Translations under genes and position numbers: made by a program
Notes under the pieces: model-generated
Databases searched by the model: none
What the model saw: the letters and a program-made list of their open reading frames with translations, nothing else
What the model was told of the DNA's origin: nothing
IMG/VR virus record: IMGVR_UViG_3300037838_000080
Span: 1-43,830 of that record
Reading direction: 5' to 3' (one strand)
From: a virus
DNA: 43,830 nucleotides
Shown here: in pieces, positions 1,347 to 34,664 of the stretch
Numbering within the stretch: the first letter of the stretch is position 1
How the letters are laid out: each line of letters opens with the position of its first letter

Positions 1347-1904
1347 ATGACTATCGAAGAAATCGCAAAATCAAGCGACGACAAGAAAGTAGAAGAAAAA
1401 GATGAAGAGAAAGATGCTAAAAAATCTTTTGATGAAACATTGATTGAAACTCTTTCAACTTTGACAGAACACGTTAAAGCACAATCAGAATCCCTAGTTG
1501 CACTCGATGAGAGACTTACAAAAGCCCTCGAAGAGAAACCAGAGACTCAACTGGACTTCCCAAATACTTCAGATGATGAAGGAATTGGTGAAGACGTAAA
1601 AGTCCCAGATACCTATCAATCCAATTCTGTTCAAGCAGAATTAGATGCTGATGGCGAAGGTGCAGAGAAAGATCCAGAAGACCTTGTTATGCAAGAAAAA
1701 TCTGAGAAAACTAACTTTGATTTCACCACTGAGACTCCAAGACCAGCAGCATCTGTTGAAACTATAAACAAATCAGAGCAATCTGAATTGAATATGGTTC
1801 TAAAAGATGCACGAGAACAAGGTTTCGACAGTTTATCTGTCGTAGCACAACGAATTTTGAAAGGTGATTACTACACTCCTACACAAGAGGAGGCATGGTT
1901 CTAA
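1347..1904 (+). CDS. Scaffold-like acidic protein upstream of the capsid gene
   Basis: This 185-residue protein is strongly charged and acidic. Residues 12-30 are almost all K, E and D, and residues 30-65 (FDETLIETLSTLTEHVKAQ and onward) form a probable coiled coil. The middle is disordered and acidic, and the C-terminal 40 residues are again helical. Such proteins immediately before the major capsid gene usually act as assembly scaffolds or as a delta domain supplied in trans. The stop codon TAA overlaps the capsid start as TAATG, so the two are probably translationally coupled at a set ratio. There is no recognisable catalytic motif. The role is inferred from composition and position only. 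Confidence 0.6.
   Translation: MTIEEIAKSSDDKKVEEKDEEKDAKKSFDETLIETLSTLTEHVKAQSESLVALDERLTKALEEKPETQLDFPNTSDDEGIGEDVKVPDTYQSNSVQAELDADGEGAEKDPEDLVMQEKSEKTNFDFTTETPRPAASVETINKSEQSELNMVLKDAREQGFDSLSVVAQRILKGDYYTPTQEEAWF
1887..1893 (+). promoter_or_regulatory. Shine-Dalgarno site of the major capsid gene
   Basis: GAGGAGG ends 10 nt before ATG 1904 but only 1 nt before ATG 1895. This spacing favours the downstream ATG as the real capsid start. It is one of the strongest SD sites in the window, fitting high output of a promoter-less internal gene. Confidence 0.7.
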
Positions 1905-3118
1905 TGGTTCAAATCAGAACTATTGACGAACTAGAGGCACTCTATTATGGACAGAATAGAAACCTAATCAGAAAAGCTGATTCCCCTGTTACTACATCAA
2001 CATCTGGCGTTTTCAACGCTATATTTGGTGCATATGCATGGGCTCAACTCAACTTAGAAGCAAATGCTTTTGGTATCTTACCAAAAGTTCCTTGGGACAA
2101 ATCTGGTTGGAGGGCAATCACTGCCAAACCAACTTTGAATACGAACCAAGGTAATACAACTCTAGGTGGTACTTCTGAAGGTGGAAATATTGCTGAAACC
2201 GTAAAGCCAACTTTACAAGAGATTGACGTCAGACCAAAAACTGCTCAGTTGCCATTCAGTGCATCTGAAGTTATGGAGTGGCTCGCAACTCACAGTAAAG
2301 ACGATATCTGGGGAGGCTTAGGCTCACTCAGATTATACATGGCTGTTCAGCATAAAGAATTCATGAATAGAATGTTGCTCGCAGATGTTGAATCAGAAGC
2401 AGCAGGAGCAAGTGCAAATAACGCAGGTACAACCAATTTCGAATCATTGGATAGAATTATTTCTTCCAATGCAGAAGAAACAGCATTAGGTGGTACTTAC
2501 GATGGAATGTACGATCCTTGGGCAGCTAACGCTACCATTGACCGTGACGGTTCAAGCACTTTTGACTGTACTGTTGAATCAGCATCAGGTACAATAGGAA
2601 CAGATGGTGTTCTTACCGATGATACACTACGAACTTTCCTTAGAAAGATCCGTATTGCAGCAGGTAAAGATCCAAACGTATTCCTAGGTTCTCACGAAGT
2701 TTATTCCGAAATACAAGGCTTATACATGCCTTCAGTCCGTATTCCAAACCCTTACGGTGAAGCATTAGTACAAGTTGATGTAAACGGTATCCAAACTTTC
2801 AAAGGAACTGGAGTCGGAATTCACGTAGATTCTATCTATGGTATCCCATTCATCCCTTCAAAAGATGCCCCATCTGGTGGCGGAAATGAAGTCGGAAGAC
2901 TATTTGCATTAGATACTTCTGATGCAGAAGGTTACGGATATCCAAGAATTGGAATTCAAGTCGCAATCCCAACTGAGTACTATGAAGCAACACGTAGAAC
3001 ACCAGCTTATCCATTCGTGAACAACGCTTTCGTTGAGAAAGGTGTTTACAGAACAATGGGTGAAACCGTTTGTCGTCACTTCAAATCACAAGGTAAGATC
3101 AGAGACATTAAACTCTAG
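1904..3118 (+). CDS. Major capsid protein (probable HK97 fold)
   Basis: The 404-residue product follows the scaffold-like gene in the canonical position and has the expected length. It begins MVQIRTIDELEALYYGQN and is rich in small polar residues and beta-prone stretches, without enzyme motifs or membrane segments. An in-frame ATG at 1895 exists, but the SD at 1887-1893 points to 1904, which forms a TAATG junction with the upstream stop. Codon use is visibly different from the neighbours: many C-ending codons (AAC, TTC, TAC, ATC), as expected for a very highly expressed gene in an AT-rich genome. A T-run terminator follows. I infer the HK97 fold from order and length, not from a sequence match. 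Confidence 0.8.
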   Translation: MVQIRTIDELEALYYGQNRNLIRKADSPVTTSTSGVFNAIFGAYAWAQLNLEANAFGILPKVPWDKSGWRAITAKPTLNTNQGNTTLGGTSEGGNIAETVKPTLQEIDVRPKTAQLPFSASEVMEWLATHSKDDIWGGLGSLRLYMAVQHKEFMNRMLLADVESEAAGASANNAGTTNFESLDRIISSNAEETALGGTYDGMYDPWAANATIDRDGSSTFDCTVESASGTIGTDGVLTDDTLRTFLRKIRIAAGKDPNVFLGSHEVYSEIQGLYMPSVRIPNPYGEALVQVDVNGIQTFKGTGVGIHVDSIYGIPFIPSKDAPSGGGNEVGRLFALDTSDAEGYGYPRIGIQVAIPTEYYEATRRTPAYPFVNNAFVEKGVYRTMGETVCRHFKSQGKIRDIKL

Positions 3119-3133
3119 TCGAACCAAAATAAA

Positions 3134-3149
3134 TTTTTTATTTTTTTTA
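3134..3149 (+). terminator. T-rich terminator after the capsid gene
   Basis: A run of 14 T broken by a single A lies 15 nt after the capsid stop. Archaeal RNA polymerase terminates on such U-tracts. No hairpin is needed or seen. Confidence 0.6.
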
Positions 3150-3154
3150 TTACA

Positions 3155-3162
3155 TTTATATA
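3155..3162 (+). promoter_or_regulatory. TATA box of the PEFG-CTERM gene
   Basis: TTTATATA begins 29 nt before ATG 3184, which places the predicted transcription start at or next to the start codon (leaderless mRNA). Confidence 0.7.
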
Positions 3163-3183: not shown

Positions 3184-3612
3184 ATGAAGTATTTATTACT
3201 CATGTTACTCGCAGTGACATTCATACCATTGGCATACGCTGACTATTCTTTAGAAGCATATGTTTTGGACGATTCAAATACTGTGGTGATAACAGGGGAG
3301 TCTGTTTCATTGGAAGAAGTTACTTTCATTGTTCAAAGTCCGTCTGGAAACATCATTACAGTTGATCAGATAACTCCGACACATACAGGTCAAATAACAA
3401 CCATGCTGACAGCAGGTGGTGCATTATGGAGTGAAGATGGTATTTACACTGTCAAAGTAATACAAGAAGGGATATCTGAAACCATTGATATAGAGTTATT
3501 GGATGGAAACATAGTCCCAGAATTTGGTGTGATAGCAATGATGATACTTGCAGTGTCAATTGTATCAATATTAATGATAACATCAAAAAGTAGACTGTTA
3601 CAAAGAATCTAA
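3184..3612 (+). CDS. Secreted surface protein with PEFG-CTERM sorting tail
   Basis: This 142-residue protein has three parts. Residues 1-19 (MKYLLLMLLAVTFIPLAYA) form a signal peptide. Residues 20-108 form a beta-rich, Ig-like domain (SLEEVTFIVQSPSGNIIT; DGIYTVKVIQEG). Residues about 110-142 carry VPEFGVIAMMILAVSIVSIL, a hydrophobic helix and the basic end KSRLLQRI. This tripartite tail (PEFG, transmembrane helix, basic residues) is the PEFG-CTERM signal of thaumarchaeal surface proteins, which are thought to be processed by an archaeosortase. The protein should be anchored on the host cell surface, or be carried there during infection. It has its own leaderless promoter and lies between capsid genes, so it may be expressed late. 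Possible roles are superinfection exclusion, cell-surface remodelling or egress; none is shown by the sequence. Confidence 0.85.
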   Translation: MKYLLLMLLAVTFIPLAYADYSLEAYVLDDSNTVVITGESVSLEEVTFIVQSPSGNIITVDQITPTHTGQITTMLTAGGALWSEDGIYTVKVIQEGISETIDIELLDGNIVPEFGVIAMMILAVSIVSILMITSKSRLLQRI

Positions 3613-3677
3613 CAGTCCACACCTTTATTTTATTTAAATGTTTGTCCAATGTTACCAACTTTTAGTTTCTGTAAAAA

Positions 3678-3709
3678 CTTAGTTAACTTATCTTAGTTAA
3701 CTTAACTAA
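3678..3709. repeat. Direct repeat plus inverted repeat, possible operator
   Basis: CTTAGTTAACTTA occurs twice with a 14-bp period (3678-3690 and 3692-3704). Overlapping the second copy is a perfect inverted repeat, TTAGTTAA-C-TTAACTAA (3693-3709). The block lies about 70 bp upstream of the TATA box of the 3807 gene, in one of the longest non-coding gaps of the head region. It could bind a dimeric regulator. Confidence 0.45.
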
Positions 3710-3776
3710 CTTTTTACACGATAAGAAGAGATATAATATAGGGCAAGAATTTATATAATATGAATGATCCTCAATC

Positions 3777-3806: not shown

Positions 3807-4199
3807 ATGGCAATCACAATCGCACAGAATTCAGACCATAAGAGTCTAACAGGAAAGACTTTGTCAGTCCAAGCAGAATTGACTTCTAAACTAAAGTCAT
3901 GTGTAGTAGATGTCACCTATGGTGCAGCAGATACTTACACAACTGGAGGAAACACAGTTGACCTTTCTTTGGGTGGTAGAATAAGCACAGTTATCGGAGC
4001 AGAAATACTTCATAGTAATGCAGGTCTACTTTTGCAATATGTCCCAGCAGCAGCAGGGGCAGCAGCCACAGGTAAGATTAAAGCTTATGGTCAAGAACCA
4101 ACGAGTGCCACAGCAACAGTTGTAGCTCTTGGGGAATTAGATGCTAGTGATACGGCAGTCAATTCATTGACCATACGTATTAGAGTATTTGGTTTCTAA
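3807..4199 (+). CDS. Probable capsid decoration or minor head protein
   Basis: The 130-residue product begins MAITIAQNSDHKSLTGKT and contains DVTYGAADTYTTGGNTVDLS, then an Ala/Gly-rich stretch (PAAAGAAATGKIKAYGQEP) and a beta-rich C-terminus. The segment with YTTGG recalls small structural proteins found after the capsid gene in many marine phages, from memory. It has no signal peptide or enzyme motif. It has its own promoter and a T-run terminator, so it is a single-gene transcription unit, consistent with a product needed in many copies. Assignment rests on position, size and composition. Confidence 0.45.
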   Translation: MAITIAQNSDHKSLTGKTLSVQAELTSKLKSCVVDVTYGAADTYTTGGNTVDLSLGGRISTVIGAEILHSNAGLLLQYVPAAAGAAATGKIKAYGQEPTSATATVVALGELDASDTAVNSLTIRIRVFGF

Positions 4200-5170: not shown

Positions 5171-6487
5171 ATGCCATCTAAACAAGCAAAATATGTTCCA
5201 AATCTATCAGAAATAGAACAAACCGCTAAAAATACATTCACAAATAAAAGAAGTGCTGTAGATGCAATGGTTCATCAATTAGTTGCTAGAACTAATGGTG
5301 ATATATATTTAAAATTTAGAGAATTAGGAATGGATTATGTACCATTTAAATTAGTGTATAATTCTCGTCCTGTATTAAGAGAATTAAAAAAAGTAAATGA
5401 TACATGGTATAAGAAGTTTAGGACAGCACGTTCAATACGTTTAGAGATAGATCATAAATTCACAAAAGCATATTTTCAAAAAAAAATAACATTTGAAAGT
5501 TGGTTATCAAGTAAATATCCTGAAGTGTCAAAAATACATTATTTTCATATTAGAAATATGGGTGAGGAACACCCAAATATATCTAAATATATAGCAGAAT
5601 TTAATAGAGAAGTACCTGTTGAAAAACAACATCCTAAACTTCAAAGTGATCATAACAAGGCTTCTATTTTAGCAGCACATATTACAGAAAAACGTGCCGA
5701 AACAGTACAGGAGTATAGAATCTTTAAATCATTTACTGGTGAACAGTTATCAAAGTTTCTAGAGAATGAAAAATATATATTTTCAGGTCAATTATTAAAT
5801 AAAAAAGCAGAACCTAACATGGCAAAATTCTTCAAGGCAGATACAAATACATCTGATATAATAAATAAAGTATTAAAAGAAGTTCTAACTAAATTCAATG
5901 ATGATTTTCTAGAATTTGATTTGAATAATATATTAGAAAGTAAACATATGAAGGAAAAATATACTGAATATAATTCACCTAGAAGTGAACAGCATCAGAA
6001 ATGGTTAGAAGAATTACCTGAAATTGAAGCACAGTGGAAAGTGAAACCCAAATTTCCAAATATTAAAAATATAAGGACATGGTTTCTTAAAACAGGATTG
6101 TTTAAATCATATAGATTTAATGATTTTCAAAACATAAAAACAGTTAAAGGAAGAAAGAGTTTCATAGACAGTTCTATATTTCTTATAGCAAATGGTATTT
6201 ACACTAGAAAATTAGGACAAAAAACATTCAAATATACAAGAGACCCAGAAACACCAAATGCATCATTTCGTAAATATAGGGAAACTGCTGGGGCTAAGAT
6301 TAAAGCATCTACCATGATGAGACGTTCAAAGTTAGATATACGTTCTAGAAGAAGAAAGGATAAATATGATAATTGGGATAAAGAGATAGAACGTATTTCA
6401 AGAGGTTGGAATAATAGAGGTACTAAATACTCTAGAATAAGACGAACCAGTGGAAATACTCGTAAACCAAGGAAAGATCCACGGTAA
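5171..6487 (+). CDS. Long basic neck / minor head protein, function unassigned
   Basis: This 438-residue protein occupies the slot of the head-closure / HK97 gp10-like neck protein, but is about three times longer than that family. It is largely helical and basic. The C-terminal 60 residues are extremely rich in Arg and Lys (RRSKLDIRSRRRKDKYDNW and onward) and could contact DNA. A stretch near residue 330, KGRKSFIDSSIFLIANGIYTR, resembles the final helix and strand of gp10-like neck proteins, so the neck domain may be C-terminal with a novel N-terminal part. No enzyme motif is seen. Position is clear; domain reading is tentative. Confidence 0.45.
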   Translation: MPSKQAKYVPNLSEIEQTAKNTFTNKRSAVDAMVHQLVARTNGDIYLKFRELGMDYVPFKLVYNSRPVLRELKKVNDTWYKKFRTARSIRLEIDHKFTKAYFQKKITFESWLSSKYPEVSKIHYFHIRNMGEEHPNISKYIAEFNREVPVEKQHPKLQSDHNKASILAAHITEKRAETVQEYRIFKSFTGEQLSKFLENEKYIFSGQLLNKKAEPNMAKFFKADTNTSDIINKVLKEVLTKFNDDFLEFDLNNILESKHMKEKYTEYNSPRSEQHQKWLEELPEIEAQWKVKPKFPNIKNIRTWFLKTGLFKSYRFNDFQNIKTVKGRKSFIDSSIFLIANGIYTRKLGQKTFKYTRDPETPNASFRKYRETAGAKIKASTMMRRSKLDIRSRRRKDKYDNWDKEIERISRGWNNRGTKYSRIRRTSGNTRKPRKDPR

Positions 6488-16635: not shown

Positions 16636-17883
16636 ATGGATAAAGACTTTTTCCTGAAGAAAAGTAGGGAATATAATTCACCATTTATTACACATCCATT
16701 TAGATATGCAGAAGCTGAAAGTGAACCTGATACACCGTCAAATATGACAGCACAACCAGCAAGTGGATCAATAATTAATTTATCATGGAGTGCTGTTGAG
16801 GCAAATCCGAGTGTAACAGGATACACAGTTGAAAAAAGTACTAACAATTCAAATTGGACTCCTGTTACAACCACATCTTCTACAAATCCAGATGCAACAG
16901 GTTTATCAGCAAATACATTATATTATTTAAGAGTTAAAGCCAATAATAGTTTAGGTTCAAGTCCATGGGTGTCAGTAAATACAACATCTGGTGTAACAAC
17001 ACCAAGTGGAAGTAGAGCAGTTCTTGGAGGAGGAAGATATACAGGATTTGTAAATACAAATAATATGGAATATTTCTCTACATCATCATCAGGATCTAGT
17101 GCAACTTTTGGTACTTTACTTGCTGCTAGATACGAACACGCAGCTGCTCATTCAACTACAAGAGGAATATTTGCATTGGGATACCCTCCTTCAGGCTCAT
17201 CGATGGAGTATATAACAATAGCAACTACAGGAAATTCATCTAATTTTGGTACTTACAGTATTACCACCTCAGGTGCAGGAGGTTTAAGTGATGGTTCAAG
17301 AGCAGTGTTTGGAGGAACAGGTTCTACAGGAACTCAGTATTATGTAAATTATTATGTCACAATAGCAACTGCAAGCAATAGTACACTTTTTGGTGATATG
17401 AGGTCTGGAAATTATCAGTGGACAAAATTCTATCAACCAGCTACAGTAGCATCACATACAAGAGGAATATTTGCAGGTGGAGGTTCTAGTTCAACTCGTA
17501 ATAAAATGGTTTATATCACAATAGCAACTGCAAGTTATTCTCAGGATTTTGGTAATTTGACAACGAATGAAAATGGAAAGAAAGGCACAGATAATCGCAC
17601 AAGAGGAATATTTTTAGGTAGTTGGGATTCTAACACTATTTGTTATATAACTATTGCAACATTGGGCAATGCCACTGACTTTGGTGATATGACAGTTGAT
17701 AAAGCTTCTTTTGCTACTGCTGGAAATGGAACTTTAGGATTTTTTGCTGGAGGAAGAAGACGTGGAACTTATGCATGGCAGTCAGATATTGCAAAATCTA
17801 CAATAGCAACATTAGGAAATTCATCTAATTTTGGTAGTTTGAGTGCAGCTAAATCACAATCTACTGGTGTAGACAACAGTTAG
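16636..17883 (+). CDS. FnIII plus beta-propeller-like tail adhesin
   Basis: The 415-residue product has two parts. Residues about 33-120 form an FnIII domain (PSNMTAQPASGSIINLSWSA; GYTVEKSTNNSNWTPV; LYYLRVKANNSLGSSPW). From about 128, five to six repeats of about 43 residues follow with the pattern YITIAT-x-GN-x-x-x-FG-(D/N/S)-L, spacer, TRGIFAGG. This Kelch-like repeat (about six blades) is frequent in marine phage tail proteins, from memory. It starts 9 nt after the fibre gene stop without its own TATA box, so it is probably co-transcribed. Likely role is adhesion to the host surface. The last repeat is short, so the propeller may close with the N-terminal strand. Confidence 0.65.
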   Translation: MDKDFFLKKSREYNSPFITHPFRYAEAESEPDTPSNMTAQPASGSIINLSWSAVEANPSVTGYTVEKSTNNSNWTPVTTTSSTNPDATGLSANTLYYLRVKANNSLGSSPWVSVNTTSGVTTPSGSRAVLGGGRYTGFVNTNNMEYFSTSSSGSSATFGTLLAARYEHAAAHSTTRGIFALGYPPSGSSMEYITIATTGNSSNFGTYSITTSGAGGLSDGSRAVFGGTGSTGTQYYVNYYVTIATASNSTLFGDMRSGNYQWTKFYQPATVASHTRGIFAGGGSSSTRNKMVYITIATASYSQDFGNLTTNENGKKGTDNRTRGIFLGSWDSNTICYITIATLGNATDFGDMTVDKASFATAGNGTLGFFAGGRRRGTYAWQSDIAKSTIATLGNSSNFGSLSAAKSQSTGVDNS

Positions 17884-17891
17884 TTTATATA
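17884..17891 (+). promoter_or_regulatory. TATA box of the 17913 gene
   Basis: TTTATATA begins 29 nt before ATG 17913, directly after the preceding stop. Confidence 0.65.
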
Positions 17892-17912
17892 TTGGAATAA
17901 TTATTACATAAT

Positions 17913-18704
17913 ATGGATTATATTGAAATTTTTAATAAAAATAAAAATTTATCTACATTAAATGAAACCCAGATAAAAAAAATTATATCAAGATTACCAG
18001 AATATAAGGAAGGTGTATCCCTAATAGGTCATGGAACATCACAAACAAGTTATTCATTACAAACAATGCAGATGATTAGTGACTCACCATTATCTAGAAT
18101 GAAGCAATGTTTATCACAAATTGATCAAAAATATCAAGCATTACAATCAACATATTGGTCATTAGAAAAAAAGAAATTGTCAATATTAAAATTAATTAAT
18201 AAAACTGATGCTCATTCTAAATTACTTGTTAGTGAATATAATTCTTACATAGAGTCAAACACAGTATTAATGAATCTTACATTAAGGGAGATTGGTATGT
18301 TCCAAGATATGTATGATTCCATCAAAAAGAGTAATAATATACCTGATAATTGGACAGAAAAGGATTTTGAAAAACAAGAGATAGATCATATGATAAGGAG
18401 TTCATTTAGACTTGGTATTCAGGATTTAAGTTCTACTGGTCGTACATCAAATGCCGTTGTAGAATATTGGGAACAGTTAGGTATACATCCACAATTAGCA
18501 GAAACATTGATAAAAGGATATTTAACATCAATTCAGATGAGGATAAATAAACAAGAATATGTTACTATTAATGAAATGTATGCTTTTTTAGATCAAATGG
18601 TATTAGAGTTCAAATATTCCTATAAAGATGCATTAAAGAGGATTGGTTTGAATGATATAGGTAGTGAAGAATTTATGGCTAAAGGAAATACAAAGCCACA
18701 ATGA
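17913..18704 (+). CDS. Coiled-coil protein of the tail region, function unknown
   Basis: The 263-residue product is mostly helical. Residues about 65-95 (MKQCLSQIDQKYQALQSTYW, then SLEKKKLSILKLI) form a probable coiled coil. A second helical half contains YWEQLGIHPQLAETLIKGYL. Proteins with this Q-x-x-x-x-x-E-K-K-K-L pattern occur near tail genes of marine phages, with unknown function. It has its own leaderless promoter, and its stop overlaps a 16-codon ORF (ATGA) that may be a remnant of a lost downstream gene. No enzyme motif is visible. Confidence 0.5.
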   Translation: MDYIEIFNKNKNLSTLNETQIKKIISRLPEYKEGVSLIGHGTSQTSYSLQTMQMISDSPLSRMKQCLSQIDQKYQALQSTYWSLEKKKLSILKLINKTDAHSKLLVSEYNSYIESNTVLMNLTLREIGMFQDMYDSIKKSNNIPDNWTEKDFEKQEIDHMIRSSFRLGIQDLSSTGRTSNAVVEYWEQLGIHPQLAETLIKGYLTSIQMRINKQEYVTINEMYAFLDQMVLEFKYSYKDALKRIGLNDIGSEEFMAKGNTKPQ

Positions 18705-18922: not shown

Positions 18923-18940
18923 TAAATAATCTTGACTGTA

Positions 18941-21900
18941 ATGAGTCAAGTTTTTCAGACAAACATATTCCAATCTAACATATATCAAGGGGAATGGGGA
19001 GGTTACACATTCCAATCCAATGTATTTCAAGGTAAATACAAAAAGAAAGTGTTCCAAAATGATGTATTACAATCAGATATATTCTCAGCAGGTCACATAT
19101 ACTCCAAAGTATTCGATGTAACAGATATTATAATAAAAACAATCAATGAGTCATTAAATATAACTGTCAATATAACCAACATAAGAAGTTTAATCAGAAT
19201 AACTAATGAATCTATATCAATACAACAATTCAGATCAAACCTTAGAGAATTAATTAAACTAGTATTAGAGAGTTCAAGTATATCGGACAACCGAAACTCC
19301 ACTAGAGGGTTGATGAGGTTGGCTGATGAGTCCATACAATCAGATGAAAACATTACAAAGTATCAGATTATAATAAGGAATCTAGCAGAGGGTATACAGC
19401 CATCAGAATCAAAATCCATACTAAGAGGACTGAAGAGAACCATATCAAATACATTATCAGTATCTGAGGTAAAGAATAAGGCTAGTGGATTAACCAAACA
19501 TATATCTGACACATTATCAGTGCAATCATTCAGAATAAAGACAAGACAGATAGTAAAGAAGGTTGCTGATACAATACAGTCATCTGAAACAACTAACAAA
19601 TTAAGAGTATTAAACAGATCAATATCAGAAACTATACAATCATCTGAGATATTAAATCCACTCAGAACCCTTGTAAGAACTGTATCTGATAACGTGTCAA
19701 TTCAATCATTCAGAGTTAAGACTAAACAAATAATTAAACATATATCTGACACATTGTCAGTGTCATCTGCATTTACAAAGTTAAAATCAATGACCAAACT
19801 TATAAATGAGTCATATCAGTTAGTAGAGAATGATATTAAACTAAGATCACTTGGAAGGATAATCAATAACACAGTCCAATCAACAGAAGGAATAATAAGA
19901 TTAAGAGGTCTTACTAGATTGATAAACGAGTCAGTTACAGTGCAAACATTTAGATTGAGAACACGATATATAATAAAATTATTAAATGAATCAATTCAAT
20001 CATCTGAAACATTCTACCGTTCAGTCAGTAGAATATTTAATGAATCAATACAAGTTACAGTCAATAGATTATTCCAATCTGATATATTCCAGAATATATT
20101 CCAGAGTGGTAGTGAGGCTTTAAGATTAATGAGTAAGGTTAAATTAATAAACGAATCCATCTCAGTACAGACCTTCAGATACAGACTCAGAACATTAACT
20201 AGAATGGTAAATGAATCTATCCAGTCATCAGAAGGAATTATAAGACTCAGAGTGTTAACTAGATTATTTAATGAATCAATCCAAACCGCTGAGGGATTAG
20301 TTAAACTCAGAGGTCTCACTAGAATAATAAACAATTCAATATCAATCCAAACGTTTAGACTAAACATAAGACAATTAATCAAACATATATCTGATACAGT
20401 AAATTCAACTGATAATACAATTAAACTTAGAACCCTTGGTAGAGTAATTAATAACACAATTAACACCTCAGAAGGAATACTTAAACTTAGATCATTAACC
20501 AGAACTGTATCTGATAGTGTATCAATTCAAACGTTTAGGTTAAACACAAGACAGATAATTAAACATATATCTGACAGTGTAAGTGTATCAGATTCATTAG
20601 TAAGGTTAAAATCAATTACTAAATTATTATCTGAGTCAATTCAGTCATCTGAAGGTATCATAAGACTTAGAGGAATAACCAGATTAATTAATGAGACCAT
20701 ACAATCATCCGAAGGAATAACAAGATTAAGAATTCTTACCAGAATGATTAACGAATCAATCTCAATTCAATCATTTAGATTAAGAGCAAGAGTTATGATA
20801 AAATTATTAAATGAATCAATTCAATCATCTGAAACATTCTACCGTTCAGTCAGTAGAATATTTAATGAATCAATACAAGTTACAATCAATAGATTATTCC
20901 AATCTGATATATTCCAGAATATATTCCAGAGTGGTAGTGAGGCTTTAAGATTGATGATCAAAGTTAAACTAATCAATGAATCCATCTCAGTTCAAACCTT
21001 TAGGGATAGACTCAGGATTATAAAAAGAATACTAAACGAATCAATTCAGTCCTCTGAATCATTCCGTAAATCAATGACAATGTCATTTAACGAATCAGTT
21101 CAAGTTAGATTTGGTTATGTATCAAGAAATTCAATGTTGAGACTAATCAACGAATCTGTATCAATCCAAACCTTTAGGGAAAACCTTAGAACAATAATTA
21201 GAATTATCAATGAATCCATACAATATTCTGATGTAATATTGAGATTGAGAGTATTGACAAGACTTGTTACTGATAATGTATTTGTCAATGAATCATTGAT
21301 ACATTTAAGCAGTATGTTACGAGTTGTAAATAACACCATATCAATATCATATGTAAATGTAAATCTTAGATCATTAATCAGAACTGTATCTGATAATGTA
21401 TCAATCCAAACATTTAGATTAAACACACGTCAACTCATCAAACACATATCTGAATCAATCCAATCATCTGAAACAATTACAAGATTATTAACAATAGGAA
21501 GAATAATTAATAATAATTTATCTGTAAATGAATCAACTATAAAATTAAGAGTACTTATAAGGAACATAAATGAATCCATATCAATCCAATCATTTAGAGA
21601 CAGATTAAGAATGTTAATCAAACATGTATCTGAATCATTATCAATATCTGAGGGTCTAACTGAACTCAGATCTATAAACAGAATTATTAATAATACAATT
21701 CAATCAACAGAAGGAATAATAAGATTAAGATCTATTACCAGACTCATTAATGAATCAATTTCAGTACAAACCTTCCGTGATAGACTTAGAGGACTTACTA
21801 GAATCATCAATGAATCCATAAATTCATCTGAAAATATAACTAAACTTAGGTCATTAACTAGAGTTGTCAATAATATTATATCCGTATTATTTAGTTCTGA

Positions 21901-24900
21901 TAGATTAAGAGTTTTAACCAGATTCATCAATGAATCAATCTCAGTTCAATCATTCCGTGATAGACTTAGAGGACTTACTAGAATCATCAATGAATCAATT
22001 CAGTCATCAGAAGGTATCATAAGACTAAGAATAATAGTTAAATCAATATCCGATACAGTACAATCATCAGAGTATATAATCAGATTAAGAAATATTACTA
22101 GAATTATAAACAATATAATCCAATCAACAGAAGGAATAACAAGATTAAGAATTCTTACCAGAATGATTAACGAATCAATCTCAGTTCAATCATTCCGTGA
22201 TAGACTAAGATTATTAACTAGAATAATTAATGAATCAATTCAGTCCTCTGAAACATTCTACCGTTCAGTCAGTAGAATATTTAATGAATCAATACAGATA
22301 ACATTTAGTAGATTATTCCAATCCGTAGTATTTCAGAATATATTCCAAGGTGGTAATGAAGCTTTAAGAGTGATGAGTAAAATTAGAATTATTACAGAGA
22401 ATGTATCTGTTCAAACTTTCAGAGACAGACTTAGAGGACTCACCAGAATGGTTAACGAGTCAATTCAATCATATGAAGGAATATTAAGATTGAGATTATT
22501 GACTAAAATCATTAATAATACATTATCTATAAATGAATCACAGATAAAATTATCATCTTTAATTAGATCCATATCTGAATCAATATCTGTTCAGACATTC
22601 AGAGAAAAACTCAGAATATTAACCAAATTAGTTTCTGAAACAGTAAACACATCTGACGGTGTGATAAGAATAAGAGATATAATAAGAATAATAAACAGTG
22701 TTATAAACACCACTGAATCATTAACAAGATTAAGAGTATTAACCAGAACTATAGTGGACTCCATATCAATCAACACTGGAGTGTTAAACACTAGACAATT
22801 AATCAAACATATTACAGACACAATAAATTCAACTGAAGGATTAGTTAAACTTAAATCTATAACTAAATTATTATCTGAATCAATCCAATCATCAGATGGG
22901 GTAATTAAACTTAGAACCCTTGGTAGAATAATAAATGAATCAATCCAAACCACTGAAAGTATAATAAAACTTAGAGGTTTAACCAGAATGATTAATGAGT
23001 CCATATCAGTACAGACTTTCCGTGATAGACTTAGAGGTCTTACTAGAATCATAAATGAATCAATACAGTCATCTGAAACATTCTACCGTTCAGTCAGTAG
23101 AATATTCAATGAATCAATACAAGTTACAGCAAATAGAATATTCCAATCTGATATATTCCAGAATATATTCCAAGGTGGTACTGAATACATTAAATTAATG
23201 GGAAGAATAAGAGTTGTAAATAATAATATAAGTGTAGCAGAATCATTTGTAAGGTTATCATCTTTCCTTAGAGTGATAAGTAACACTGTTCAAACTACTG
23301 AATCATATGTAAGAAACATATCATTAAAGAGAATTATTAACAATACAGTACAGTCATCAGAAGGTATAATAAAACTTAGAGGTTTAACAAGATTGATCAA
23401 TGAGTCAGTATCTATACAAACATTTAGAGAAAAATTACGATTCATTATTAGAATATTAAATGAATCTGTACAATCTGTAGAAGATATATTATATACAAGA
23501 GTCTTATTCAAAGTATTAAATGAATCATTGTCCATACTTGAATCACATGTAAATCTCAGGGTATTAAGTAGGGTAATTAACAATATAATACAGTCATCAG
23601 AAGATATCATAAGACTTAGAGGACTAACCAGAATTATAAGTGAGTCCATTTCAGTTCAAACATTTAGAGATAGACTTAGAGCATTGACCAGAATGGTAAA
23701 CGAATCTATACAATCATCTGAATCATTCCGTAAATCAATGACAATGACATTCAGTGAATCTATTTCCACACTTGAATCACATGTAAATATTAGAGTATTA
23801 AAACGAGTAATAAACAATACAATACAATCATCTGAAGGAGAAATAAAGGTGGGTGGGTTCATAAAAGTTATCAATAATACATTGAATATTACATTTGGAT
23901 ATGTTAAGAATAGATCTATTACAAGAGTGATCAATAACATCATACAATCATCTGAAACCTTCTACCGTTCAATGAGCAGAACATTCAATGAAATAGTACA
24001 GGTTAGAATTGGATATGTATTCAGAAGATCATTATTAAGACTCATAAATGAATCAGTATCAGTACAAACATTCAGGGACAGATTAAGATTCCTTACTAGA
24101 ATAATAAATGAAACTGTCCAATCATCAGAAGGATTAACAAGACTTAGAGTACTTGTAAGGATTATCAATAATACATTATCTGTATCAGAGTTGTTGGTTA
24201 AATTACAAACAATTAATAGAATCATATCTGAATCAGTATCCATTCAAACATTCCGTGAAAAACTCAGAGTATTATTGAGAGTAGTATCAGATAATATATC
24301 TGTATCAGAAGGTATCACGAAACTAAGAGGAATTAATAGAGTTATATCTGAAGTTGAATCTTATTCAGAATCACTTGTTAAATTACAAACAATAAAGAGA
24401 GTGATTAATAATACATTAAATGTATCTGAATCAAATGTAAAGTTACAAACAATCATTAGAACATTCAATGAATCAATATCTGTTCAAACATTCAGGGACA
24501 GATTAAGATTCCTTACTAGAATAATTAACGAGTCTATACAATACTCTGAAGGAGTGGTACGATTAAGAGGAATAATTAGATCTGTAAACAACACCATTCA
24601 ATATACAGAATCATTCAGAAAGGCAGTAAGCATGTCATTCAGTGAATCATTATCATTGTCTGAAGGGAATATACCACTTAGAAGTTTAATTAGAACCATA
24701 TCTGAATCAGTATCCATTCAAACTTTCAGAGAAAAACTTAGAGTGATGTTCAAAGTATTAAATGAATCAGTATCATTAAGTGAAACATCATTATTCCTTA
24801 GAGGTATAATTAGAACAATATCTGAAACAATGTATATATTAAGAATACGTATAGGTGTATTCCAATATGTATTCCAGAATAATGTATTCCAATCTGGTTA

Positions 24901-27250
24901 TGAAATAGTAATGTTAAGAGGACTTACAAGAGTAATAAACAATTCAATATCAGTGTCAACTAGTGTAAATAAACTACGTTCATTAACCAGAATTATAAGT
25001 GAGTCCATATCAGTACAAACATTCAGAGACAGACTTAGAGCACTTACCAGAATGATAAATGAATCTATACAGTCATCTGAAACATTCTACCGTTCAGTCA
25101 GTAGAATATTTAATGAAAGTATTCAGGTATCAACTGGAGTAGTATTTGTAAGGTCAATGATGAAAATAATTAATGACAGTATAAACACATTGGAATCAAT
25201 CATATACACAAGAGGATTAATTAGAATTATAAATAACACTGTATCAGTACTATTTGATTCTGACAGATTAAGAGGATTAACTAGACATATAAACGAATCA
25301 GTATCCATTCAAACATTCCGTGAAAAACTCAGAGTATTATTGAGAGTAGTGGATGAATCAGTATCATTGAATGAAACAACTGTCAAACTCAGAGGTATGT
25401 TAAAAGTAATTAATAATACAATACAATCATCTGAGGGAACAATTAAACTTAGAGGTTTAACAAGACTCATAAACGAATCCATCTCAGTACAGACATTCAG
25501 AGACAGACTCAGAGCACTCACCAGAATAATTAATGAATCTATAAGTTCATCCGAATCATTCAGAAAGAGTTTCACTAGAACATTTACTGAAACAGTTCAG
25601 ACATCTGATGCAACCATATTTGTAAGAAGTATGTTAAAAGTATTAACAGATAATGTATCTATTAACACAATAACAGTACCAGTGAGAGGATTGATAAGAA
25701 GTGTCAATGACAATATACAATCATCAGAAGGTGTAATCAAACTTAGAGGCTTAACTAGAATGATTAATGAATCAGTATCAGTTCAAACATTCAGAGATAG
25801 ATTAAGAACAATGGTTAGAATTATAGATGAATCCATATCTTCATTTGAAGGAGTAGTAAGACTCAGAGGACTCACAAGACTTATCAATGAATCTATCTCA
25901 GTACAAACATTCAGGGATAGACTCAGAGTAATGACTAGAGTTATCAACGAATCAGTACAGTCAATAGAAGATACAATAAAATTAAGAGGAATGATGAAGA
26001 TAGTTAATAATACATTAAACATGAGTGAGGGTATCATAAGACTCAGAGGTTTAACCAGATTGATAAATGAGAATATGAATATATTAGAAACCGTACATTC
26101 AATAAAAACTATAATCAAATTATTGTCAGAGTCTGTATCAATACAATCATCTGTAGTAAGACTCAGAGGACTCACAAGATCAATAAACGAATCCACATCA
26201 GTTACTGAAACCACTAATAGATTGAGAGGAATATTAAGAAATATAGATGAATCTATAAACATATCAGAAGGGTTGATCAACCTCAAAAGTTTAACTAGAC
26301 ATATCAACGAGTCAGTATCCGTTCAGACATTCAGGGATAGATTAAGAACAATAATAAGAATGATTAATGAGTCAGTATCTTCATCTGAAGTGGTATTAAA
26401 TATAAGAGTATTAACCAGAATGGTAAATGAATCTATCTCAGTACAAACATTCAGAGAGAATCTTAGAACAATGGTAAGAATCATTAATGAATATGTTCAA
26501 ACATCTGAGGGATTAATAAGATTAAGAGAACTATCAAAGATAATTAATAATACCTTGAGTGTAGGAGAGGTTAACATTAAACTCATGAGTATAACAAGAT
26601 CCATATCTGATAATATAAACATGTCAGAAGGTATCATGAGGTTGAGAGGATTAACCAGACTCATAGATGAGTCCATATCAGTACAGACTTTCCGTGAAAA
26701 CCTTAGAACAATATTCAGAGTTATTAACGAGTCAGTTCAATCTACTGAAAACATAATTAGATTAAGAGGACTTGTTAAACAGATTGATTCTACCATTGGT
26801 ATATCAGAATCCATATTAAAAACAAGAGGATTGATTAGAATTATATCATCTAACATATCTGTCAGTGAAGGTATAATAAAGATGAAAAGTATAATCAGAT
26901 TGATATCTGATAGTATTAGTATAAATGAAATCATATTAAGATACAGAGGACTTACATTTATGGTTAATGAGGTAATTCAATTAACTGAATCATTAATGAC
27001 TATATTAGGAAGAGTGAAGGTGATAGTAGAATCAATATCAATACAAACATTCAGAACCAGTTCAAGAGGATTAATAAGAATAGTGAATGAATCCATAAGC
27101 ATATCATTATCACTATCCAAATTATTACAAGACGGTGCTGTAAGGGTTATAAAGACGTTTGGTATACATAGTAGATCTAAGACTGTAGGAACACATGATA
27201 GATCACAAAGTACAAATACTTATAAAAGAGATAAGGATATAGGTTGTTAA
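18941..27250 (+). CDS. Giant 20-residue-repeat protein, probable tail-associated fibre or adhesin
   Basis: About 2,769 residues (start ATG 18941; an in-frame TTG lies at 18932). The N-terminus has FQ motifs (VFQTNIFQSNIYQGEWGGYT). Most of the rest is a 20-residue repeat in two alternating flavours: L-T-R-(I/L)-I-N-E-S-I-Q-S-S-E-G-I-I-(R/K)-L-R-G, and the same start followed by S-(V/I)-Q-(T/S)-F-R-D-R-L-R; I count about 33 copies of the S(V/I)Q(T/S)FR form. Four FQ insertions recur inside (for example RLFQSDIFQNIFQSGSEAL). There is no signal peptide, membrane segment or enzyme motif. Similar ESL/SDS-type repeats occur in large phage proteins of unknown role. Position after fibre genes and before a BppU-like gene suggests a long virion fibre, but this is inference. 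Confidence 0.6.
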   Translation: MSQVFQTNIFQSNIYQGEWGGYTFQSNVFQGKYKKKVFQNDVLQSDIFSAGHIYSKVFDVTDIIIKTINESLNITVNITNIRSLIRITNESISIQQFRSNLRELIKLVLESSSISDNRNSTRGLMRLADESIQSDENITKYQIIIRNLAEGIQPSESKSILRGLKRTISNTLSVSEVKNKASGLTKHISDTLSVQSFRIKTRQIVKKVADTIQSSETTNKLRVLNRSISETIQSSEILNPLRTLVRTVSDNVSIQSFRVKTKQIIKHISDTLSVSSAFTKLKSMTKLINESYQLVENDIKLRSLGRIINNTVQSTEGIIRLRGLTRLINESVTVQTFRLRTRYIIKLLNESIQSSETFYRSVSRIFNESIQVTVNRLFQSDIFQNIFQSGSEALRLMSKVKLINESISVQTFRYRLRTLTRMVNESIQSSEGIIRLRVLTRLFNESIQTAEGLVKLRGLTRIINNSISIQTFRLNIRQLIKHISDTVNSTDNTIKLRTLGRVINNTINTSEGILKLRSLTRTVSDSVSIQTFRLNTRQIIKHISDSVSVSDSLVRLKSITKLLSESIQSSEGIIRLRGITRLINETIQSSEGITRLRILTRMINESISIQSFRLRARVMIKLLNESIQSSETFYRSVSRIFNESIQVTINRLFQSDIFQNIFQSGSEALRLMIKVKLINESISVQTFRDRLRIIKRILNESIQSSESFRKSMTMSFNESVQVRFGYVSRNSMLRLINESVSIQTFRENLRTIIRIINESIQYSDVILRLRVLTRLVTDNVFVNESLIHLSSMLRVVNNTISISYVNVNLRSLIRTVSDNVSIQTFRLNTRQLIKHISESIQSSETITRLLTIGRIINNNLSVNESTIKLRVLIRNINESISIQSFRDRLRMLIKHVSESLSISEGLTELRSINRIINNTIQSTEGIIRLRSITRLINESISVQTFRDRLRGLTRIINESINSSENITKLRSLTRVVNNIISVLFSSDRLRVLTRFINESISVQSFRDRLRGLTRIINESIQSSEGIIRLRIIVKSISDTVQSSEYIIRLRNITRIINNIIQSTEGITRLRILTRMINESISVQSFRDRLRLLTRIINESIQSSETFYRSVSRIFNESIQITFSRLFQSVVFQNIFQGGNEALRVMSKIRIITENVSVQTFRDRLRGLTRMVNESIQSYEGILRLRLLTKIINNTLSINESQIKLSSLIRSISESISVQTFREKLRILTKLVSETVNTSDGVIRIRDIIRIINSVINTTESLTRLRVLTRTIVDSISINTGVLNTRQLIKHITDTINSTEGLVKLKSITKLLSESIQSSDGVIKLRTLGRIINESIQTTESIIKLRGLTRMINESISVQTFRDRLRGLTRIINESIQSSETFYRSVSRIFNESIQVTANRIFQSDIFQNIFQGGTEYIKLMGRIRVVNNNISVAESFVRLSSFLRVISNTVQTTESYVRNISLKRIINNTVQSSEGIIKLRGLTRLINESVSIQTFREKLRFIIRILNESVQSVEDILYTRVLFKVLNESLSILESHVNLRVLSRVINNIIQSSEDIIRLRGLTRIISESISVQTFRDRLRALTRMVNESIQSSESFRKSMTMTFSESISTLESHVNIRVLKRVINNTIQSSEGEIKVGGFIKVINNTLNITFGYVKNRSITRVINNIIQSSETFYRSMSRTFNEIVQVRIGYVFRRSLLRLINESVSVQTFRDRLRFLTRIINETVQSSEGLTRLRVLVRIINNTLSVSELLVKLQTINRIISESVSIQTFREKLRVLLRVVSDNISVSEGITKLRGINRVISEVESYSESLVKLQTIKRVINNTLNVSESNVKLQTIIRTFNESISVQTFRDRLRFLTRIINESIQYSEGVVRLRGIIRSVNNTIQYTESFRKAVSMSFSESLSLSEGNIPLRSLIRTISESVSIQTFREKLRVMFKVLNESVSLSETSLFLRGIIRTISETMYILRIRIGVFQYVFQNNVFQSGYEIVMLRGLTRVINNSISVSTSVNKLRSLTRIISESISVQTFRDRLRALTRMINESIQSSETFYRSVSRIFNESIQVSTGVVFVRSMMKIINDSINTLESIIYTRGLIRIINNTVSVLFDSDRLRGLTRHINESVSIQTFREKLRVLLRVVDESVSLNETTVKLRGMLKVINNTIQSSEGTIKLRGLTRLINESISVQTFRDRLRALTRIINESISSSESFRKSFTRTFTETVQTSDATIFVRSMLKVLTDNVSINTITVPVRGLIRSVNDNIQSSEGVIKLRGLTRMINESVSVQTFRDRLRTMVRIIDESISSFEGVVRLRGLTRLINESISVQTFRDRLRVMTRVINESVQSIEDTIKLRGMMKIVNNTLNMSEGIIRLRGLTRLINENMNILETVHSIKTIIKLLSESVSIQSSVVRLRGLTRSINESTSVTETTNRLRGILRNIDESINISEGLINLKSLTRHINESVSVQTFRDRLRTIIRMINESVSSSEVVLNIRVLTRMVNESISVQTFRENLRTMVRIINEYVQTSEGLIRLRELSKIINNTLSVGEVNIKLMSITRSISDNINMSEGIMRLRGLTRLIDESISVQTFRENLRTIFRVINESVQSTENIIRLRGLVKQIDSTIGISESILKTRGLIRIISSNISVSEGIIKMKSIIRLISDSISINEIILRYRGLTFMVNEVIQLTESLMTILGRVKVIVESISIQTFRTSSRGLIRIVNESISISLSLSKLLQDGAVRVIKTFGIHSRSKTVGTHDRSQSTNTYKRDKDIGC
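19973..20127 (+). repeat. 155-bp internal duplication, copy 1
   Basis: Copy 1 matches 20798-20952 with a single mismatch at an offset of 825 bp (275 codons). It covers the SSETFYRSVSRIFNESIQ and FQ insertion module. Related but more diverged copies start near 22240, 23070 and 25078. Confidence 0.85.
20798..20952 (+). repeat. 155-bp internal duplication, copy 2
   Basis: Partner of 19973-20127, in the same reading frame. Near-identity of this pair against diverged neighbours points to a recent in-frame recombination or gene conversion event. Confidence 0.85.
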
Positions 27251-33713: not shown

Positions 33714-34664
33714 ATGTTAAAAATAACATTAGTTGCACTGTTATTCGTAGGAATGACAGTAGCATACGCAGAAGAAGCAACAGTACAAATACCATTTGAT
33801 TATCATGGTCAACAATGTACTTTCAATGAGATTGCAATTGAATATCATTGTGTATGGCAAGGAACATATGACACATTCACAGTAGAAGATTTGGAAGAAT
33901 TCAAACATGTTCTAAGTGAAGAAGTGTATGAGGAAGAACTTGCAAGACTTACATATGTAGAGCCAATAGTTATACCACAACTTAGTGCTGACGAAAAGAC
34001 AATTCAAGAACTTGAGTTAAAGTTAGTTGATGGAACTATGAAAAATCCAGATGCAGTATTACTACATATGTTGAGAACTCTTGATGAGTGTCAACAAGGA
34101 CTAGGTAACTCAGCTGCAATTCAAGAAGAGAGAACATTCGTAACATCTGACTATCAATTTTTGTCAGTAAGTAATGTTCAGATTGAAGGGCAGTTAGGTG
34201 AACTTGTAATGGCAATAGAGGAATGTAAAGCACAACAAGTGTTAGAACATAAAACACTATCAGTAGCATATGCACATTTTGCAGAGGCTAACAAAGCTGG
34301 TAACTATGACCACTATGGATCATTTGAAGGTATAAGTGCAATACCATATTCACAATACACCAAGAGTGATTTCAAGGTAGACATTGGAGTCATATGTGAT
34401 AGTCATGCATACTCACAGTCCTACAAAGATACAATGGGTTGTCCACCTGTACAATATGATGGATTCATATACCCAGAGGGTAACGGTTTAATCAGTTACT
34501 ACTCACCAATAATTGAGGAGTATACATTCTTCATGCAGGACTATGGTAACAAACAGGCAACTTTGCATGACAAACAGATACAAGCTGATATTGCAGAATC
34601 AATAGCAAGAGAACTGATAGAAGATAATCTATTCTATCAAAACCAACTCAAACGAGGGGACTAA
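33714..34664 (+). CDS. Secreted protein with signal peptide, function unknown
   Basis: The 316-residue product has a signal peptide, MLKITLVALLFVGMTVAYA, cleaved before EEATVQ. The mature part contains six or seven cysteines, the first pair in QQCTFNEIAIEYHCVWQG and a later pair in VICDSHAYSQSYKDTMGC, probably forming disulfides outside the cell. A helical middle part (ADEKTIQELELKLVDGTMKN; GELVMAIEECKAQQVLEHKT) is followed by an aromatic-rich C-terminal part. No transmembrane or PEFG tail is present, so it should be released or bound to the cell surface. It has its own promoter opposite a putative repressor gene, and a T-run terminator. Confidence 0.6.
   Translation: MLKITLVALLFVGMTVAYAEEATVQIPFDYHGQQCTFNEIAIEYHCVWQGTYDTFTVEDLEEFKHVLSEEVYEEELARLTYVEPIVIPQLSADEKTIQELELKLVDGTMKNPDAVLLHMLRTLDECQQGLGNSAAIQEERTFVTSDYQFLSVSNVQIEGQLGELVMAIEECKAQQVLEHKTLSVAYAHFAEANKAGNYDHYGSFEGISAIPYSQYTKSDFKVDIGVICDSHAYSQSYKDTMGCPPVQYDGFIYPEGNGLISYYSPIIEEYTFFMQDYGNKQATLHDKQIQADIAESIARELIEDNLFYQNQLKRGD

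Follow-up and report, generated by a model that had tools for sequence, protein, structure and literature searches.

Reading frame and architecture of the PEFG-CTERM protein

The stretch of DNA analysed here, referred to as the window, is the whole of a 43,830-nt IMG/VR virus record (IMGVR_UViG_3300037838_000080), which carries genes for capsid, terminase, tail tube, MCM and RadA. An open reading frame on its plus strand, beginning with ATG at 3184 and ending with TAA at 3612, precisely where an earlier note on this DNA had placed it, encodes a protein of 142 amino acids designated P0001. The features of the window on which the analysis is based are as follows:

1895 to 3118, plus strand: gene for the major capsid protein (MCP; phrog_24667, 2e-26), directly upstream of P0001
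3148 to 3672, plus strand: cargo cassette, absent from the closest relatives without the P0001 gene (blastn against L011, L013 and L015)
3155 to 3162, plus strand: TATA box TTTATATA, 29 nt before the P0001 ATG, a spacing also found before other genes of the window
3184 to 3612, plus strand: P0001 gene, for a predicted PEFG-CTERM Ig-like surface protein of 142 aa (open reading frame, translation, TIGR04296)
3184 to 3240, plus strand: signal peptide, residues 1-19, AYA/D (inspection of the translation, hydropathy)
3241 to 3510, plus strand: one beta-sandwich of the Ig/MG-like type spanning residues 20-109; its homologue in host PEFG proteins with two Ig domains is the C-terminal one (homology, AF2, Foldseek)
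3511 to 3597, plus strand: PEFG-CTERM sorting tail, residues 110-138, comprising VPEFG, hydrophobic helix and KSR basic end (TIGR04296)
3807 to 4199, plus strand: conserved 130-aa gene bounding the cargo slot on its 3' side, present downstream of the slot in relatives
33714 to 34664, plus strand: gene for a second exported viral protein of 316 aa with a signal peptide; relatives lie in the cargo slot of L018 and beside the PEFG gene of a second virus lineage (L131 5336-6337)

The earlier note had described a virus-contig protein with a signal peptide, an Ig-like domain and a VPEFG tail, and all three parts were recovered: the signal peptide by inspection and hydropathy, the Ig-like domain by fold and homology, and the tail by the PEFG-CTERM model search that the note had proposed, in which residues 110-138 matched profile positions 1-29 of 30 of TIGR04296 at 41 bits (E 1e-10) in comparison to a curated cut-off of 25 bits. 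We regard this model as specific, because a match over the cut-off was found in none of 14 control genomes in comparison to 13, 6 and 12 places in three thaumarchaeal genomes. The N-terminus, MK-YLLLMLLAVTFIPL-AYA/D, has the form of a plain signal peptide. At the C-terminus, PEFG (residues 112-115) is followed by the helix (115-141 in the AF2 model), with KSR (135-137) at the very end, and in an alignment of P0001 with cellular Nitrososphaerota proteins PEFG was invariant and KSR near-invariant.

The AF2 model, which is of moderate confidence (mean pLDDT 73.5), contains 7 to 8 strands over residues 22-111 and the helix at 115-141, with the signal peptide disordered. Among the Ig/MG-like sandwiches returned by Foldseek searches with this model, mostly with modest E-values, were MG domains of alpha2-macroglobulin and 7ptp, an S-layer protein of haloarchaeal origin. 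The label "Ig-like" refers to this fold and to homology with the host family, because the Pfam Ig models gave sub-threshold matches and none over the cut-off. P0001 matched no PHROGs family and no INPHARED phage at E<=1, and it was the only protein found in the window with both a signal peptide and a C-terminal helix.

Promoter and insertion of the gene

Comparison by blastn with three relatives whose MCP is 98% identical (L011, L013 and L015) showed that homology stops at window position 3147 and resumes at 3673, while only about 35 nt separate the homology ends at the empty site of these relatives; the P0001 gene is therefore a clean cassette of about 525 bp. A TATA box at -29/-30 likewise precedes the genes at 3807, 4253, 6519, 6971, 8488, 13425, 17913 and other genes of the window, and the presence of the same element before P0001 suggests that the gene is most likely transcribed alone, as a monocistronic and leaderless transcript. 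With its own promoter and its clean insertion relative to close relatives, the gene thus has the traits of a moron.

The P0001 gene and 3.5 kb of flanking DNA were 100% identical in three more IMG/VR contigs (L002, L003 and L004) from other metagenomes, and chimeric assembly at this position was rejected on the basis of the four contigs being identical over 3.5 kb. Provirus or cellular contamination was also rejected, given that capsid, terminase, tail tube and MCM genes are on one contig and that the syntenic relatives are viral. Short palindromic repeats (TTAGTTAACTTA... and TTAATTAATTAA) were observed just 3' of the cassette at 3676-3715 in the window and at 11284-11330 in L011, i.e., at both filled and empty sites, and are possibly a recombination point or a regulatory site.

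The gene had been placed between capsid genes and was to be sought at the same place in related viruses. The first statement is right for the upstream side, where the MCP (phrog_24667, 2e-26; about 25% identical to haloarchaeal tailed-virus MCPs) is located, but not for the downstream side, where the small conserved protein of 3807-4199 matched no family. As for related viruses, the TIGR04296 search found a P0001-type gene in 0 of 43 relatives' contigs outside the gene's own population, and a scan of IMG/VR for other P0001-like PEFG proteins returned its own population only; the gene is not shared by the whole virus family.

Cargo slot behind the capsid gene

The distance between the MCP gene and the homologue of the 3807 gene ranged from 61 to more than 2000 nt in 80 related loci. 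In a rough script tally of slot contents in these loci, the slot was nearly empty in 24 of 80 and a spacer without any open reading frame of at least 45 aa in 16 of 80, small transmembrane (TM) proteins were found in 17 of 80, and a PEFG gene was present in two of the 80 loci plus the window. A protein of about 210 aa, in which a TM helix at the N-terminus is followed by a coiled-coil stalk and an Ig/MG-like head, was found in seven loci plus L008, and the slot of one locus (L018) holds a secreted protein related to that of window 33714-34664. The slot also accepts a nitrification gene, since in L059 (IMGVR_UViG_3300025818_002756; MCP 88% identical) positions 5309-5869 encode AmoC (PF04896, 51.8 bits, cut-off 26.7). 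The slot is thus a cargo hotspot whose contents are often membrane- or outside-directed.

In sister viruses with an MCP 96% to 98% identical to that of the window, the slot holds the TM-anchored, coiled-coil-stalked Ig/MG-like protein. The possibility that P0001 is a homologue of this protein was rejected (hhalign probability 0.5%), the two having place and fold class alone in common.

The exported 316-aa protein of the window belongs to a family with 13 further IMG/VR loci (L173-L185). None of 201 cellular genomes of the order returned a match in a search run without a positive control, and the family was found only in viruses here.

Host protein family and origin of the gene

Relatives of P0001 were found only in Nitrososphaerota records in a scan of one genome per species. 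In the Nitrososphaerota order searched, 141 of 300 genomes contained relatives at E<=1e-4, and high copy numbers within one genome were frequent. The identity between P0001 and the host PEFG proteins was 42% to 50% over residues ~20-138, which cover the Ig domain and the tail, and the best host match gave E 7e-33 with 47% identity over residues 19-138. Most of the host relatives are 270 to 310 aa in length with two Ig domains and the tail, of which P0001 matches the C-terminal Ig domain and the tail; P0001 itself has one Ig domain only, and a one-Ig cellular form, L108, is 38% identical to P0001 over its full length. The PEFG-CTERM double-Ig proteins of Nitrosopumilaceae, such as L085 (Ca. Nitrosomaritimum khambatensis, 268 aa) and L091, have the same order of signal peptide, Ig and PEFG as P0001, whereas they are cellular and mostly carry two Ig domains, in comparison to the single Ig domain, long branch and viral location behind a capsid gene of P0001.

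The homology of both Ig domain and tail to a multi-copy Nitrososphaerota surface family indicates that the gene was captured from a host, and by this sequence evidence it is host-derived and fast-evolving since capture. The tree gave P0001 a very long branch, with 1.5 changes per site, because of which we consider it changed far beyond mimicry, and its nearest rows, without strong support, were two-Ig proteins of a Ca. Nitrosomaritimum-type genus. The assignment of the host to the Nitrososphaerota, as made in the earlier note, is supported, because relatives of P0001 occur in these 141 of 300 genomes and AmoC is found in the same slot of a related virus.

Host thaumarchaeosortase

An archaeosortase over the TIGR04178 cut-off was found in all 20 PEFG-bearing host genomes tested, and in the two genomes checked there was one member of the thaumarchaeosortase family TIGR04297 per genome. 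No TIGR04297 match was found in 16 virus records covering both virus lineages that carry PEFG genes, and a virus-encoded archaeosortase was rejected on this basis. The distribution agrees with the earlier proposal of reliance on the host sortase system, in that the virus would depend on the host enzyme.

In an alignment of the thaumarchaeosortases of 20 genomes (L169, L191-L209), Ser was found at the position of the archaeosortase catalytic Cys (WPSAGVHS), while the later Arg and His were conserved. Because of this Ser, processing of the tail may differ from that by ArtA. We know of no experimental demonstration of cleavage of PEFG tails; no demonstrated thaumarchaeosortase activity was found, and the name itself was absent from the open literature searched.

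A second virus lineage with a PEFG protein

IMG/VR was scanned with patterns for the tail motif, a procedure which can miss divergent relatives. Besides the gene's own population, the matches included a PEFG protein of 271 to 273 aa on five contigs of another virus, in all cases over the TIGR04296 cut-off. The remaining matches of the scan were rejected as short or wrong-frame chance matches, so that by the patterns used PEFG-CTERM viral genes occur in two lineages in all of IMG/VR. The second lineage, represented by a 57-kb record, is a tailed virus (TerL phrog_675, 1e-19) whose terminase family differs from that of the window; no related MCP or TerL was found between the two. The genes in common are limited to those associated with the tail, a gene for a metallophosphoesterase and that for the exported 316-aa protein; in the second lineage, the relative of this exported protein is encoded near the PEFG gene.

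Two tail-region genes of window 16636-18704 are also found in G352, a member of the second lineage (L148 3581-5897), with 36% and 69% identity, while capsid and terminase are not; tail-region genes in common without a common capsid or terminase point to modular exchange between thaumarchaeal virus lineages.

The PEFG protein of the second lineage is closest (43% identity) to a host paralogue class other than that of P0001, and the presence of two host paralogues in two virus lineages is best read as two captures, the host gene having apparently been taken up separately in the second lineage. For a pair of variants of this protein, the overall dN/dS was 0.38; the N-terminal Ig part gave 0.43 and the 33-codon tail about 0.09, in comparison to 0.05 for the neighbouring DNA ligase used as control, although with one pair and a short tail the estimate is a weak one. 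These values point to a tail kept by purifying selection while the ectodomain drifts. An exported copy of the C-terminal domain of this protein (42% identical), without the PEFG tail, was also observed at L131 6381-6803 (minus strand) and L150 1504-1902, and appears to be a soluble protein that partners the anchored one.

Proposed function and alternatives

The sequence evidence consists of the sorting tail, homology to host proteins, the clean cassette insertion, a promoter belonging to the gene itself, a sortase encoded by relatives of the likely host and the apparent second capture with a selected tail. From it we infer the expression, export, anchoring and benefit of P0001 as follows. A tailed virus of ammonia-oxidising archaea would have captured a host PEFG-CTERM surface gene, which would have been trimmed to one Ig-like domain and the sorting tail and carried behind the capsid gene as an independently transcribed cargo cassette. 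During infection, P0001 would be exported through its signal peptide and retained in the membrane by the helix of its tail, and the thaumarchaeosortase of the host would anchor it in the envelope, so that the infected cell would present a virus-encoded counterpart of a host envelope protein. As its use we favour superinfection exclusion by modification or dilution of the receptor, in which case further virions would no longer adsorb productively to the changed envelope.

Display of P0001 on the surface of the infected cell is highly probable, because it follows from the parts of the protein, and the viruses of both PEFG-carrying lineages probably alter the surface of the cells that they infect. 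The adsorption role, in the form of superinfection exclusion, is put forward tentatively, and the combination of display and adsorption role with the same reserve. S-layer proteins serve as receptor or fusion trigger for haloarchaeal viruses, one of them being an archaeosortase-type PGF-CTERM protein (PMC8875312, PMC9973310), and altering such proteins could therefore stop further adsorption. Surface-directed cargo also recurs in the slot of sister viruses, in agreement with the proposed display and adsorption role. Against the adsorption role, a search for superinfection exclusion at the adsorption step in HFTV1, a haloarchaeal tailed virus, did not detect it (PMC9973310). The rarity of such genes, which the patterns used found in two lineages in all of IMG/VR, the long branch of P0001 and the Ser in the host sortase also weigh against the combined reading.

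The main rival to an adsorption role is one in egress, in which a one-Ig protein placed late among the host PEFG proteins would loosen the S-layer or block the sortase in a dominant-negative manner. Consistent with this are the one Ig domain of P0001 in comparison to the usual two, the virion-gene promoter type and the location in the structural module, which fit late expression, its position as the sole signal-peptide and C-terminal-helix protein found in the window, and the fact that no lysis gene was recognised among the window proteins searched. We nevertheless consider egress unlikely, since truncation is not needed in the second lineage, whose PEFG protein has two domains, and since close relatives are without the gene or carry other cargo, so that P0001 cannot be an essential lysis gene. 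A similarly low probability is given to a benefit to the host, in which P0001, in the manner of an auxiliary gene, would help the infected cell to adhere, aggregate or tolerate stress. The metabolic gene amoC in the slot of L059 and the rise of host PEFG proteins in Nitrosopumilus cultures grown without catalase (PMC6593220) are in its favour, whereas most slot cargo consists of membrane or secreted proteins, and the companion exported protein of 316 aa is virus-only, which together favour a surface role specific to the virus.

That P0001 is a passenger, i.e., a recently captured host gene which is functionless for the virus and heading for loss, is still less probable: its patchy presence and long branch could be read in this way, but the frame is intact with its own promoter in four contigs, the identity of 42% to 50% to any cellular copy indicates a long-lasting gene with motif-perfect ends, and an apparently independent capture with a selected tail is found in the second lineage. 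Least probable of all is decoration of capsid or tail by P0001, as suggested by an Ig-like fold encoded directly 3' of the MCP gene and by the common occurrence of Ig-like virion proteins in tailed phages, since a cytoplasmic protein free of export signals would be expected whereas P0001 carries an N-terminal export signal and a C-terminal membrane tail conserved to host standard, which would take it out of the cytoplasm where tailed-virus heads assemble, and since the gene is absent from relatives with a 98% identical MCP.

Taken across both lineages, the display and adsorption reading extends to the suggestion that tailed viruses of ammonia oxidisers repeatedly capture thaumarchaeosortase substrates and keep the tail under selection to remodel the envelope, which would be the first viral use of an archaeosortase; we regard this as possible rather than probable. 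The envelope-remodelling set proposed as part of this suggestion would consist of the PEFG proteins, the virus-only 316-aa family and the TM-anchored Ig-like proteins of the capsid-side slot.

Comparison with known systems

Phage morons and superinfection-exclusion proteins of the bacterial envelope are characterized by an autonomous promoter, a patchy cassette in the structural module and an envelope-directed product. P0001 has the same cassette traits, with no sequence relation to these proteins, and differs in its putative archaeal anchoring route; an exclusion role would be by analogy. Among anchored surface proteins, SasX of Staphylococcus aureus is attached by classical sortase A at an LPXTG motif. 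It is a cell-wall-anchored protein encoded on a PhiSPbeta-like prophage with a role in colonisation (PMC10232760), and is thus, like P0001, a host-type anchored surface protein encoded by a virus, while it differs from P0001 in belonging to a bacterial prophage and in its role in colonisation, in comparison to an archaeal virus and a Ser-type thaumarchaeosortase. The haloarchaeal PGF-CTERM S-layer proteins (HRPV-6, PMC8875312; HFTV1 receptor, PMC9973310) are archaeosortase-type proteins at the virus-host contact, as is proposed for P0001, but are encoded by the host rather than the virus.

Because SasX lies on a prophage, a virus-encoded sortase-anchored protein is not new as such, and the earlier claim of a new type of host-surface takeover needs tempering in this respect, while in another respect it is exceeded by the second independent lineage. 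The new finding here is that another lineage of tailed viruses, whose terminase is different, has a separately captured host PEFG protein. Occurrences of PEFG-CTERM were found in the open literature searched, none of them about viruses.

Knowledge is scarce on the ways in which the tailed viruses of marine ammonia oxidisers among the archaea handle the host envelope, for the takeover of which the PEFG proteins and the companion exported proteins are concrete candidates. The apparent capture of a PEFG substrate by viruses at least twice, with the tail selected in one lineage, suggests that the sorting tail is useful to viruses. P0001, with its 142 aa, could serve as a compact natural reporter for testing the Ser-active-site thaumarchaeosortase, and further host-modifying genes in a globally relevant nitrifier might be sought in the cargo slot downstream of the MCP gene, where amoC is also found.

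Elsewhere in the window, 18932-27250 encodes a 2772-aa protein with dozens of units of about 35 aa (INESIQSSEG.., RLRGLTRLINESISVQ..), whose relatives are shorter and diverged (24% to 35% identity); it is possibly a fibre or surface protein.
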